NCBI GenBank assembly: GCA_030682405.1 | Contig: JAUXOF010000059.1 | Span: 1-47,337, forward strand | Length of the DNA: 47,337 bases | Source of the DNA: Thermodesulfovibrionales bacterium | GTDB taxonomy: Bacteria > Nitrospirota > Thermodesulfovibrionia > Thermodesulfovibrionales > JdFR-86 | Reading direction: 5' to 3' | In this document: piece after piece, positions 20,920 to 24,108 of the stretch | How the letters are laid out: each line of letters opens with the position of its first letter | How positions within the stretch are numbered: position 1 is the stretch's first letter | The notes under the pieces: generated by a model | Databases searched by the model: none | Told to the model about the DNA's origin: nothing | Seen by the model: the letters and a program-made list of their open reading frames with translations, nothing else | Made by a program: the position numbers and the translations under genes

Positions 20920-23079
20920 TTATCTTCCGGCAGCGCCGCTTCCTACCTTGACCTTCCAGAGCGTGCAGTCTTTTTTGTCCTCGAGTATTATGCCTTTTTC
21001 CTCAAGCCCTTTTCTTATTTCATCGGCCCTCGCCCAGTCTTTCCTTTCCCTTGCCTCCTGCCGCTCATTTATCATATCAAGTATATCTTTTTCCGAAAGC
21101 CCTATCCTTTTCGTCCTCATAGAAGCCAAGGCCCACTCGGAAGGGGTTCTTGTAAAAACATTAAGCACGCCGGATGTCTCGCTGAGGGGTTCCTTCACGG
21201 CCCGGAGGAGTTCCACTGCCTCTTTTCCCGACGGCGAAGTGTCAAGAAACCTGTTTATCTCCCTGATAAGCTCGAATATATGGCCCACTGCAAGGGCGGT
21301 ATTGAAATCATCGTCCATTGCCTCCTCAAACCTTGCGCTATAAGAGGAAAGGGCCTTAGAGAGCGCCTCCCGCCCGTCGGCCTCCGTAGCTTCTTTTCCG
21401 TGCGAGGCGTGGGCGTCCTTGCCTGTCGAAAGAAAGTCGTCAATCCTTGAGACGGTCGTATAGTACCTGTCCAAAGAGGCCTCTGCCTCCCTTAACTGTT
21501 CGTCCGAGAACTCTATCGGGCTTCTGTAATGGGTGCCGAGCAGGAAGAACCGCACAGCCTCGGAGTCGAATTTATCAAGTATCTCCTCTATGGTGAAGAA
21601 GTTGCCGAGGGATTTGGACATCTTCTCCTTATCTACGGTTATGAACCCGTTATGAACCCAGTATCTGACAAAGGGCTTTCCCGTGTATGCCTCGGACTGG
21701 GCTATCTCGTTTTCGTGGTGCGGGAATATGAGGTCGGCCCCGCCGCCGTGGATGTCAAAGGTCTCGCCGAGATGCTTTATGGCCATGGCCGAGCACTCGA
21801 CGTGCCACCCCGGCCTACCCGGCCCCCAAGGGCTTTCCCATGAAGGCTCGCCCTCTTTTGATGCCTTCCAGAGCGCAAAATCCATCGGGTCCCTTTTCCT
21901 TTTGTCCACATCCACCCTTGCGCCGGCAAGCATGTCGGACTTTTCCCTGCCGGAGAGCTTTCCGTAATCGCGGAACTCGGCCACCTCAAAATAAACGTCT
22001 CCGTCCACGGTGTATGCGTAGCCCTTGTTTATGAGGCCCTTTACGATTTCTATTATTTCGGGGATATGCTCCGTTGCCTTCGGCTCCATGTCAGCAGGCT
22101 CAACCCCAAGCCTTTCCATGTCCTCCGAATATTTCCGGGTGTATTTGCGGGCGACCTCGTCCCAGCCGATGCCTTCCTTTTGCGCCCTGTTTATAATCTT
22201 GTCGTCTATGTCCGTAAAGTTCTTGACGAATTTTACCTTAAACCCTTTGTAGGCCAGATACCGCCTTATAACGTCAAAAACTATCGCGCTCCTTGCATGG
22301 CCTATGTGGCAGTTGTCATAGACGGTAACGCCGCAGGCGTATATGCCCACCCTGCCGGGTTCAAGCGGCTGGAAATCCTCTTTCTTTCCGGTAAGCGTGT
22401 TATATATCTTCATCCTGCTTTTCCTGCCCTGAAGCCTTTCCATTTCATTTGACAGCTCGGAGATATGTGCCTCAATCGCCCGAAACCTCTCCTCAACCGG
22501 GTCCGGAAAGTGAACATGGTCAAGCACCTCACGAGGCCCCTCATCCTCGACCCTCACAACCTTCCTTTTTATCACCCTGCCCGGCACTCCGACCACTATG
22601 GAATAATCAGGCACAGGCCGGAGCACAACAGAGTTAGCGCCTATTTTAGCATAATCCCCAATCCTGATAGCCCCGAGTATCTTTGCGCCTGTTCCCACCA
22701 CCACGCCCCTGCCCAGCGTCGGATGCCTTTTGCCCTTTTCCTTACCCGTTCCTCCTAAGGTGACGCCCTGATAAAGAAGGCAGCCCTCGCCTATCTCCGC
22801 TGTCTCTCCTATGACCACGCCCATCCCGTGGTCTATGAAAAAACCCGGGCCTATCTTAGCTCCGGGGTGTATCTCTATGCCTGTGAGGAACCTGCCTATA
22901 TGCGAAAGAAGCCGGGGGATGAAAGGTATCTTCCACTTCCACAGGATGTGGTTTATCCTGTGAAGGAATATGGCATGGAAGCCCGGATAGGCAAGCGCCA
23001 CCTCGATGCCTCCTCTTACAGCAGGGTCTTTCTCAAACACCGCCCTGTAGTCCCGCCTTATATCGGACCAGAAACCCAT
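20920..23079 (-). CDS. cysE-cysS: Fused serine O-acetyltransferase / cysteinyl-tRNA synthetase
   Basis: One uninterrupted 719-codon frame encodes both enzymes. Residues 1 to about 222 are a full Cys[21 protein letters not shown], the hexapeptide-repeat helix with [39 protein letters not shown] and the usual DHVHFPDPV tail. Residues 223-719 are a full class I Cys[14 protein letters not shown], zinc Cys in [13 protein letters not shown] in [23 protein letters not shown] and KMSKS. CysE makes O-acetylserine, the precursor of cysteine; CysS charges cysteine to its tRNA. The two genes are often neighbours, but here no stop separates them. An ATG at 22413 with AGGAAA upstream could also start a free CysS. 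The longer frame upstream of 23079 lies over the divergent HEAT gene and is not used. TATAAT lies 6 nt before the start, suggesting a leaderless mRNA. Confidence 0.93.
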
Positions 23080-23085
23080 TAAATA

Positions 23086-23091
23086 ATTATA
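23086..23091 (-). promoter_or_regulatory. Perfect -10 box for cysE-cysS, leaderless arrangement
   Basis: TATAAT on the minus strand ends 6 nt before the ATG at 23079, with no ribosome site in between. Transcription would begin at or next to the start codon. No good -35 box is visible. Confidence 0.45.
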
Positions 23092-23102
23092 CAATAAACC
23101 TG

Positions 23103-23111
23103 TGATATTAT
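23103..23111 (+). promoter_or_regulatory. Extended -10 box for the HEAT-repeat gene
   Basis: TG-A-TATTAT is an extended -10 motif ending 7 nt before the ATG at 23119, again with no ribosome site. It overlaps the cysE-cysS promoter region in a 39-bp divergent gap. Confidence 0.45.
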
Positions 23112-23118
23112 ACGGTTT

Positions 23119-23538
23119 ATGAGCGATTCGCCGGACATCCCTAAAAACCCGCCTGAGGACATGCCCTCCATGATAGCAGACCACATGGAGGCGGGATTCC
23201 TTGAAAACATCATAGACATGTTCAAGCACGACAGCGGGCTTTTCTTGCTGCTTGGACAACTGATGGCTGACGAACGAGGCAGGGTGAGGCTCGGCGCCGT
23301 TGCCCTTGTCGAGGAACTTAAAGAAGAATACGGCAATGAGATTATTAAGGCAATCCCTCATATAGGCAAACTTTTAAAGGACCCCGCGCCTGTCATCAGG
23401 GCGGATGCGGCATACCTTCTTGGGATTATCGGCTCAAAAGACGCCTTCCCTTATCTGACGGATGCCTTAAGCGATGAAAACAGGCTTGTGCGTCAAACGG
23501 TCTCAGAGACCATAGAGGATATGTCAGGTACGGGATAA
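23119..23538 (+). CDS. Small HEAT-repeat protein
   Basis: The 139-aa protein has two or three helical repeats of HEAT type ([53 protein letters not shown]). Such repeats form protein-interaction scaffolds; the specific partner is unknown. It is transcribed divergently from cysE-cysS with only 39 bp between starts. A diverged copy of its last codons occurs at 25302-25343, suggesting that a second HEAT gene once stood downstream. Confidence 0.75.
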
Positions 23539-23548
23539 AGACCGGCTG

Positions 23549-23827
23549 TCAGGCCGCCTTTTGAATTTCTTTGGCCTCGTACTCGGGAAACATTATGATA
23601 GCCGGATGGATGTCAAAAGCCCTCGCTATGCGCTCTACGCGTTTCTTGCCTATTTCCACCCTGTCGTTTTCCAAAAGGCTGATATTGGACGCGCTGATGC
23701 CCGTCCGCTTGGCAAGCCCCTCCTGCGTCCAGCCCTTTAATTCACGAAGCATGCGTATGACCTCGCCGGTCGTGAGTTTTGCATGAGGTTTTGCCGGCGC
23801 AAATTCGGCCTGTCTACGAATTCCCAT
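23549..23827 (-). CDS. XRE-family antitoxin, HigA-like
   Basis: The 92-aa protein contains a classic helix-turn-helix (about residues 20-75): GEVIRMLRELKGWTQEGLAKRTGISASNISLLENDRVEIGKK split over the usual five helices. It lies 8 nt after a RelE/HigB-type toxin gene on the same strand, the toxin-first order typical of higBA. It should neutralise the toxin and repress the shared promoter at 24117-24145. Confidence 0.82.
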   Translation of the reverse strand: MGIRRQAEFAPAKPHAKLTTGEVIRMLRELKGWTQEGLAKRTGISASNISLLENDRVEIGKKRVERIARAFDIHPAIIMFPEYEAKEIQKAA

Positions 23828-23835
23828 AAGTCCTC

Positions 23836-24108
23836 CTAATCTTCGTGCGGCGTTATTTCCAAAACATAAACGGTAACGGTGTCCCGCTCTACCTTATAGA
23901 TTACCCTGTATTGCAAGCTCAGGCGCGATGAACGCTGACCCTTGCGTTTGCCCTTCAGTTTCTCGTCATGAAACCCCGGAAACTCTCTCGCTTTCTCCGG
24001 CCCGTGCCTGAAAACAATATCCTTCCAGAGTTCGTATTTCTTAACTACCGCTACCGGAAGCCTGCGGCATATCCTCCCGATGTCCCGATGCTCTTTGATA
24101 TGCCACAT
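23836..24108 (-). CDS. RelE/HigB-type toxin
   Basis: The 90-aa basic protein has the RelE-superfamily pattern: an N-terminal helix pair, a central lysine-rich stretch (DEKLKGKRKGQRSSRLSLQYRVIYKVE) and a final strand VTVYVLEITPHED. These toxins cut mRNA at the ribosome. Arg and Lys residues are available in the expected catalytic strands, but their roles are not assignable here. It is the first gene of the pair, with a 17-bp-spaced sigma70 promoter whose start point is predicted at the start codon. Confidence 0.82.
   Translation of the reverse strand: MWHIKEHRDIGRICRRLPVAVVKKYELWKDIVFRHGPEKAREFPGFHDEKLKGKRKGQRSSRLSLQYRVIYKVERDTVTVYVLEITPHED

Follow-up and report, generated by a model that had tools for sequence, protein, structure and literature searches.

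Does the open frame at positions 20920 to 23079 of a Thermodesulfovibrionales contig really encode serine O-acetyltransferase (CysE) and cysteinyl-tRNA synthetase (CysS) as one polypeptide and, if it does, how old is the joint gene, from which starts is it translated and what could the joining do? The window, i.e. the whole stretch of 47,337 nucleotides that was analysed, belongs to a genome (G000) that measures 2.03 Mb, is split into 87 contigs and is 99.77% complete. The reading that we consider very likely is that of an ancestral bifunctional enzyme, spread over its class and made as one polypeptide from a probably leaderless message, with both halves probably active and free CysS as a further product in many families.

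tRNA synthetases fused to an enzyme from the biosynthesis of their cognate amino acid are, to our knowledge, rare. The present case makes it testable whether joining amino-acid supply to tRNA charging does anything, and it offers natural experiments both ways, in lineages that lost the internal start codon and in those whose fusion was split or disappeared. A description of a CysE-CysS fusion was not found in the literature searched, nor in the available text of PMC3814617, in agreement with the initial annotation, which knew of none; PMC8762117, as far as its accessible part goes, deals with other Cys-tRNA systems.

One frame for two enzymes

The frame lies on the minus strand, from an ATG at 23079 to a stop at 20922-20920, and contains zero internal stops. 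Its parts and the signals around it are the following:

20920..23079, minus strand: fusion gene CysE-linker-CysS, 719 amino acids, stop included (frame reading and profile matches)
22555..23079, minus strand: CysE (serine O-acetyltransferase) part, residues 1-175 (TIGR01172 at residues 7-168; nearest solved relatives)
22414..22554, minus strand: linker, residues 176-222, a motif of 10 residues and then a helix (alignment; AlphaFold2 helix 194-216)
22432..22497, minus strand: predicted coiled-coil segment of three heptads, residues 195-216 (a/d pattern over 82 loci)
20923..22413, minus strand: CysS (cysteinyl-tRNA synthetase) part, residues 223-719 (TIGR00435 at residues 223-709)
22411..22413, minus strand: internal ATG (Met223), at which free CysS may begin (start codon kept in 68 of 82 fused loci)
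22422..22425, minus strand: weak Shine-Dalgarno-like AGGA, 8 nt ahead of the internal ATG (sequence; energy at background level)
23086..23091, minus strand: TATAAT -10 box, with 6 nt between its end and the start codon of the fusion (putative leaderless-type promoter)

An ATG further upstream in the same open frame, at 23361, was ruled out as the start of the fusion, the homologs beginning at 23079. A start codon stands exactly at the position of the fusion Met1 in 78 of the 82 fused loci, which makes 23079 the likely start.

Both enzymes had been read as complete in this frame by the initial annotation, with their catalytic motifs kept, and both statements hold. The CysE half scores 238.7 bits with TIGR01172 (cut-off 210.65) and also passes the cut-off of the EpsC model NF041874 (NCBIfam), and the CysS half scores 581 bits with TIGR00435 (cut-off 340) and contains the catalytic, DALR and CysS_C (C-terminal anticodon) domains of Pfam; 47 residues separate the two. 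The nearest solved chains are serine acetyltransferases for the first half (e.g., 1ssq, E 1.6e-44) and the cysteinyl-tRNA synthetases 8qhp (E 2.6e-142) and 1li5 (E 8e-142) for the second. The N-terminal half is thus the same as the stand-alone short serine acetyltransferase of the TIGR01172/EpsC type, except that here the C-terminus continues into CysS. An alignment of 44 fused proteins shows D83, H84, R118 and H119 of CysE to be invariant and D18 to be kept in at least 90%, H84, R118 and H119 being presumably catalytic. In the CysS half, H258, G260 and H261 of the HIGH motif (position 259 varies), the KMSKS motif (K486-S490) and the presumed zinc ligands C249, C429, H454 and E458 are equally invariant. 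D83 and D18 are counted with these histidines among the presumed catalytic residues of CysE. Both halves are probably active enzymes, as judged from these residues. No second copy of CysE or CysS was detected in G000, where the sole other match is weak (E 9.6e-5, query residues 89-170).

The simplest objection to such a frame is an assembly or sequencing error, a missed stop or a frameshift, and the window does come from a draft genome of 87 contigs. However, 100 loci from its own genome, its relatives and wider matches of the class were read, and 82 of them, the window included, consist of a single stop-free frame with both enzymes; the same join is present in the single-contig genomes G010, G016 and G276. 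Error is thereby ruled out, with a residual probability that is negligible. A stop at the junction in relatives had been named beforehand as the observation to weigh against a fusion, and the outcome speaks for the fusion. The other loci comprise 17 in which CysS is unjoined to CysE and one weak match of the own genome (L002). One locus, L083, is fused yet truncated in CysS, and the remaining CysS follows in another frame.

At the level of genomes, 44 of 61 (the own genome and 60 relatives) have one match spanning both halves; the match in G005 is cut by a contig end. In the class, which we take to be Thermodesulfovibrionia, 166 of 230 genomes are fused by score (match E<=1e-245), the 82 frames having been read individually and the other genomes called by score. 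The threshold was taken to require both halves, as the matches to CysS alone among those listed scored 806.7 bits (E 6.4e-243) at best. No score at the fusion level occurs outside the class among 295 genomes of the wider phylum, the best value outside it being 4.7e-200, and none of 20 loci chosen among the matches listed for the phylum's other classes, some of them with unusually long frames, is fused. Among the best 80 of 564 confirmed candidates in public genome contigs there is one fused locus, L101 (Nitrospirae bacterium isolate SZUA-242, a MAG); 27 others of these 80 have a cysE match in another frame, mostly close upstream of cysS, and the rest show CysS alone. In another of the 80 (L151, an uncultured Clostridiales MAG contig), the CysS frame extends upstream into a charged stretch at bases 1-110, where the contig breaks off, and this is possibly an independent fusion.

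Of the 44 fused genomes, 42 have no serine acetyltransferase match at E<=1e-15 other than the fusion (the exceptions are G045 and G060). For most genomes examined it is the only match to both enzymes, and annotation by the top-scoring model alone would read cysteine--tRNA ligase, so that the acetyltransferase could look missing.

Probable origin, inheritance and loss

The 100 class rows of a CysS tree of 124 rows, rooted on 24 of the 79 public loci other than L101, form one branch with a support of 99, and the deepest class branch, family f18, is fused. On this tree, 7 changes are needed to account for which rows are fused, compared with a mean of 34 after shuffling, and well-supported branches force 6 of them. 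One gain and about six losses would be the simplest reading, and this suggests that the fusion is ancestral in the class, with a single old origin and repeated loss. The CysE tree has little resolution, with stars on 10 of its 90 inner branches; it needs 2 changes, and it groups the three split cysE genes as one branch without placing them inside the fused group. Both are quick trees with SH-aLRT support only. Judged by frames, profiles and trees, the fusion is true and old and is spread over its class, an unusual way of joining two ordinary enzymes.

The likely source of the joint gene is seen in Bacillota, in which the same enzymes are encoded in the same order and mostly close together. In its available text, PMC3814617 groups yacOP, ispDF, cysS, gltX and cysE together. 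Free CysE of Bacillota ends in a DPV motif and a charged helix, like the linker of the fusion, and loss of the stop between neighbours is therefore the simplest origin. The Bacillota arrangement differs in having two genes with a stop between them; among the best 80 of 564 public loci only L101, a Nitrospirae record, is one frame. According to this scheme, the stop within a neighbouring cysE-cysS pair would have been lost once, at an early stage of this Nitrospirota-type class; inheritance of the joint gene would have followed, with several later losses.

Because 17 of the 61 genomes have no joined match, the fusion is not indispensable. Three of these 17 keep an adjacent cysE. At the locus level, cysE and cysS overlap by a few bases in L090 and L092 of family f3, and a stop lies just before cysS in L091. 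CysS without an adjacent CysE is found in the loci read of f9 and f10, in G006 of f2 and in G231 and G202 of f12; two f10 genomes, G340 and G346, are fused by score. A diverged cysE lies beside cysK in five of the 17 (G006, G026, G035, G044, G053), and two others (G014, G048) have a weaker cysE match. No cysE match at E<=1e-15 was obtained in the remaining seven, G013, G025, G034, G043 and G052 (all f9), G039 and G056. These seven may use another cysteine route or an unrecognised acetyltransferase, or, in the case of G056, the match may fall into a draft gap; CysS itself is partial in G056, so a broken fusion is possible there.

The seven genomes just named do have cysKM-family matches. In L088 (G006) a TATAAT, a close ATG and a short frame persist before cysS after loss of the fusion, like a scar of the leaderless-type start. 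A second CysS-like protein, with 32-35% identity to the CysS part, is present in G017, G026, G028, G031, G035, G044, G045, G046 and G053; the match ends at residue 534-629 of 719, and the frames have about 405-430 amino acids (623 in G031). Two copies of the fusion lie on two contigs of one draft in G374 (family f41), a case of contamination or duplication.

Promoter motif and possible translation starts

In 50 of the 82 loci, an exact TATAAT stands upstream of the fusion start codon, its end 4-13 nt away, compared with a mean of 0.93 and a maximum of 6 in shuffles; with one mismatch the count is 60 (shuffles 11.45, maximum 24). The exact box is present in all loci of f1 (5), f2 (6), f5 (6) and f6 (2) and absent from all loci of f3 (3), f7 (8), f8 (2), f14 (2) and f18 (2), and 32 of the 82 loci do not have it at this distance. 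Such a box precedes 1 of 45 crude ORFs of the window, a count that left out the fusion itself, the start of which lies 98 codons inside its open frame. By anti-Shine-Dalgarno (anti-SD) energy no ribosome site is found at the fusion start, the average over the 82 loci being -0.4 kcal/mol and one locus reaching -7. A TATAAT beside the start codon in 50 of the loci suggests a leaderless mRNA, and the message of the fusion probably has its 5' end on the start codon or right beside it. Leaderless genes of Deinococcus-Thermus and other bacteria likewise have a -10 box beside the start codon, given as TANNNT or TATAAT about 12 bp before it in the available parts of PMC3160421 and PMC12340547. In contrast to those genes, what follows the leaderless-type start here is a fusion with a possible second start within its frame. 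A second TATAAT is seen at 23107-23112 on the minus strand, 27 nt before the fusion start and beside the start of a divergent HEAT-repeat gene, and it is a possible second promoter.

The candidate for this second start is the codon for Met1 of CysS. At this position, 58 of the 82 loci have ATG, 6 GTG and 4 TTG, and 14 have no start codon, although two of these (L069 and L073) keep an ATG one codon earlier. A GGAGG precedes the codon in 45 of the 68 loci with a start codon vs. 3 of the 14 without, and the mean anti-SD energy is -10.2 with ATG, -10.3 with GTG or TTG and -7.3 without a start codon. The difference between loci with and without a start codon gives p=1.1e-4, with loci counted as independent despite their kinship; compared with draws of synonymous codons, and with loci again treated as independent, the site is stronger with a start codon (p=2.8e-8) and not without (p=0.81). 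Taken by family, 10 of 13 go in the expected direction, which is not significant (sign p=0.09, Wilcoxon p=0.08), and only 3 tree-independent pairs are available for the internal site, again with no significance. With the start codon kept at Met1 and the GGAGG ahead of it, many lineages may make both the fusion and free CysS; a ribosome site within the coding sequence of the linker would add the free enzyme in many families.

The idea of two starts is uneven across families. The internal site is strong in f2, f5, f7, f8, f11, f12, f13 and f16 and weak in f1, f3, f4, f6 and f14, and in f1, the family of the window, it is weak in all 5 loci read. The best anti-SD energy of the window's own site is -7.3 kcal/mol, a value reached by 14% of positions in the gene, and the site is not stronger than synonymous draws or the background of the gene. 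The proposal made initially, that an ATG at 22413 with a modest ribosome site could yield free CysS, therefore survives in part: the codon at 22413-22411 is residue 223 and is a plausible start in many relatives, and the site in the window itself is at chance level.

Twelve of the 82 loci have no ATG, GTG or TTG at Met1 or one codon before. Apart from the fusion, 10 of these 12 genomes have no match to either enzyme at E<=1e-12, and provided that the drafts are complete, tRNA-Cys is probably charged there by the fused CysS; the exceptions are G031, with an extra CysS-like protein of 34%, and G214, with a broken frame. Free CysS is possible in these lineages too, since 10 of the 12 loci have another ATG, GTG or TTG within 22 codons around the junction (a TTG seven codons upstream in 7, an ATG six codons in, in 5) and only L066 and L081 have none.

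Linker, probable oligomer and possible uses of the joining

Counted from the first residue behind the DP of the linker, positions 0, 4, 7, 11, 14, 18 and 21 are V, I, L, M or F in 93% of cases over the 82 loci, compared with 3% at the other positions; a register shifted by one or two gives 2-4%, and by three about 50%. By this pattern the segment is a three-heptad coiled coil. The AlphaFold2 monomer (mean pLDDT 85, pTM 0.69) has a helix at 194-216, and pLDDT falls below 50 at 180-184, 186-194 and 218-220, so flexible joints probably lie on either side of the linker helix. For 14 chosen pairs the linker has a dN of 0.009-0.202; a usable dS was obtained for 10 of them, with dN<dS in 9 and a dS of 0 in the other. 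Given its likeness to the tail of free CysE, the linker is probably a former CysE tail, and as a coiled coil of this descent it implies that CysE trimers probably carry CysS arms. The trimer itself is assumed from known CysE structures, and with it the initial suggestion that the fusion forces CysS into an oligomer is likely. The left-handed β-helix of CysE would trimerise, its C-terminal helix would run on as the coiled coil and each chain would end in one CysS, with CysS held as a trimer (or hexamer) and in a fixed 1:1 dosage to CysE. A single protein with both activities in the cell, its trimeric state, the leaderless start and the second product are features that we infer from sequence. 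Proteolysis may also occur between the two halves.

The fullest version of the scheme would have a leaderless message giving two proteins, the fusion and free CysS from the linker site, with CysS as an arm of the CysE trimer, a ratio of precursor synthesis to charging set by the two kinds of start, and side branches that, without the inner start, depend on the fusion alone; as a whole it is put forward tentatively, the more so as 10 of the 12 loci with no start codon at Met1 have other candidate codons close by. A related reading, about as tentative, gives the two products mainly separate roles, internal initiation making most CysS and the fused form serving chiefly as CysE. The start codon at Met1 in 68 loci, the GGAGG in 45 of these and a fusion start that itself has no ribosome site argue for it; the 14 loci that lost the codon (12 of them with none a codon earlier either), the 10 genomes among these 12 with no other CysS and the weak site in f1 argue against it. 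The long form must in any case also be made, because the first stop codon that ribosomes translating cysE encounter is the one that closes cysS.

Whether the joining as such brings a benefit separates two further explanations. Loss of the stop between neighbours could have been harmless and, both genes being needed, could have persisted as a neutral ratchet without benefit, an explanation to which we give somewhat less than an even chance. It accords with most of 26 loci of the public set, in which the end of cysE overlaps cysS or lies no more than some tens of bases from it and the free CysE has the same tail of DPV and helix as the linker, and with the several lineages that split or lost the fusion while keeping CysS. 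However, presence in 166 of 230 class genomes and a little-changed linker suggest constraint, though the helix may serve CysE alone. Functional coupling, in which CysS held at CysE would link the rate of cysteine precursor formation to tRNA-Cys charging by shared feedback, local concentration or a complex with CysK, is unlikely in comparison. Conservation over the class and the 1:1 stoichiometry of the long form, fixed by the frame itself, favour it, but an internal start in many families would loosen that stoichiometry. Fused CysE would make O-acetylserine for a separate CysK, and CysS would charge tRNA-Cys; since O-acetylserine must pass through CysK, direct channelling of cysteine is unlikely. 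Each of the 61 genomes has a match to the cysKM family, which in 59 exceeds the cut-off; G015 and G024, both fused drafts, have weak or partial matches below it. Enteric CysE binds CysK by its free C-terminus, which is not a feature of every CysE, and no free CysE C-terminus exists in the 82 fused loci, where the frame runs on into CysS; this too weighs against coupling. A parallel in its favour is the MetRS of Mycoplasma penetrans, also a synthetase with N-terminal metabolic domains, for which a coupling of methionine biosynthesis to charging is proposed and which dimerises through its tandem N-terminal ancillary domains, according to the available text of PMC13215547. It differs in the synthetase and the domains involved, and it is a dimer of one species as opposed to a trait of a whole class.

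The surroundings of the gene vary. In at least 28 of the 82 fused loci the 1.5 kb downstream include a SpoU-type (rlmB-like) methylase gene, and in at least 10 such a gene is found upstream, both counts being lower bounds given the short flanks of some loci. In L081, on the deepest branch, genes for IspD and IspF (YgbB) precede the fusion, as in the gene group described in part of PMC3814617. In the window, genes for S-adenosylmethionine synthetase and S-adenosylhomocysteine hydrolase lie downstream of the fusion, and the small divergent HEAT-repeat gene (23119-23538) has relatives at 20 loci. Beyond it, at 23549-24108 on the minus strand, a small helix-turn-helix protein (HTH_3) lies beside an ORF of 90 amino acids without a Pfam match, RelE/HigB-like by eye, and the two are perhaps a toxin-antitoxin pair.
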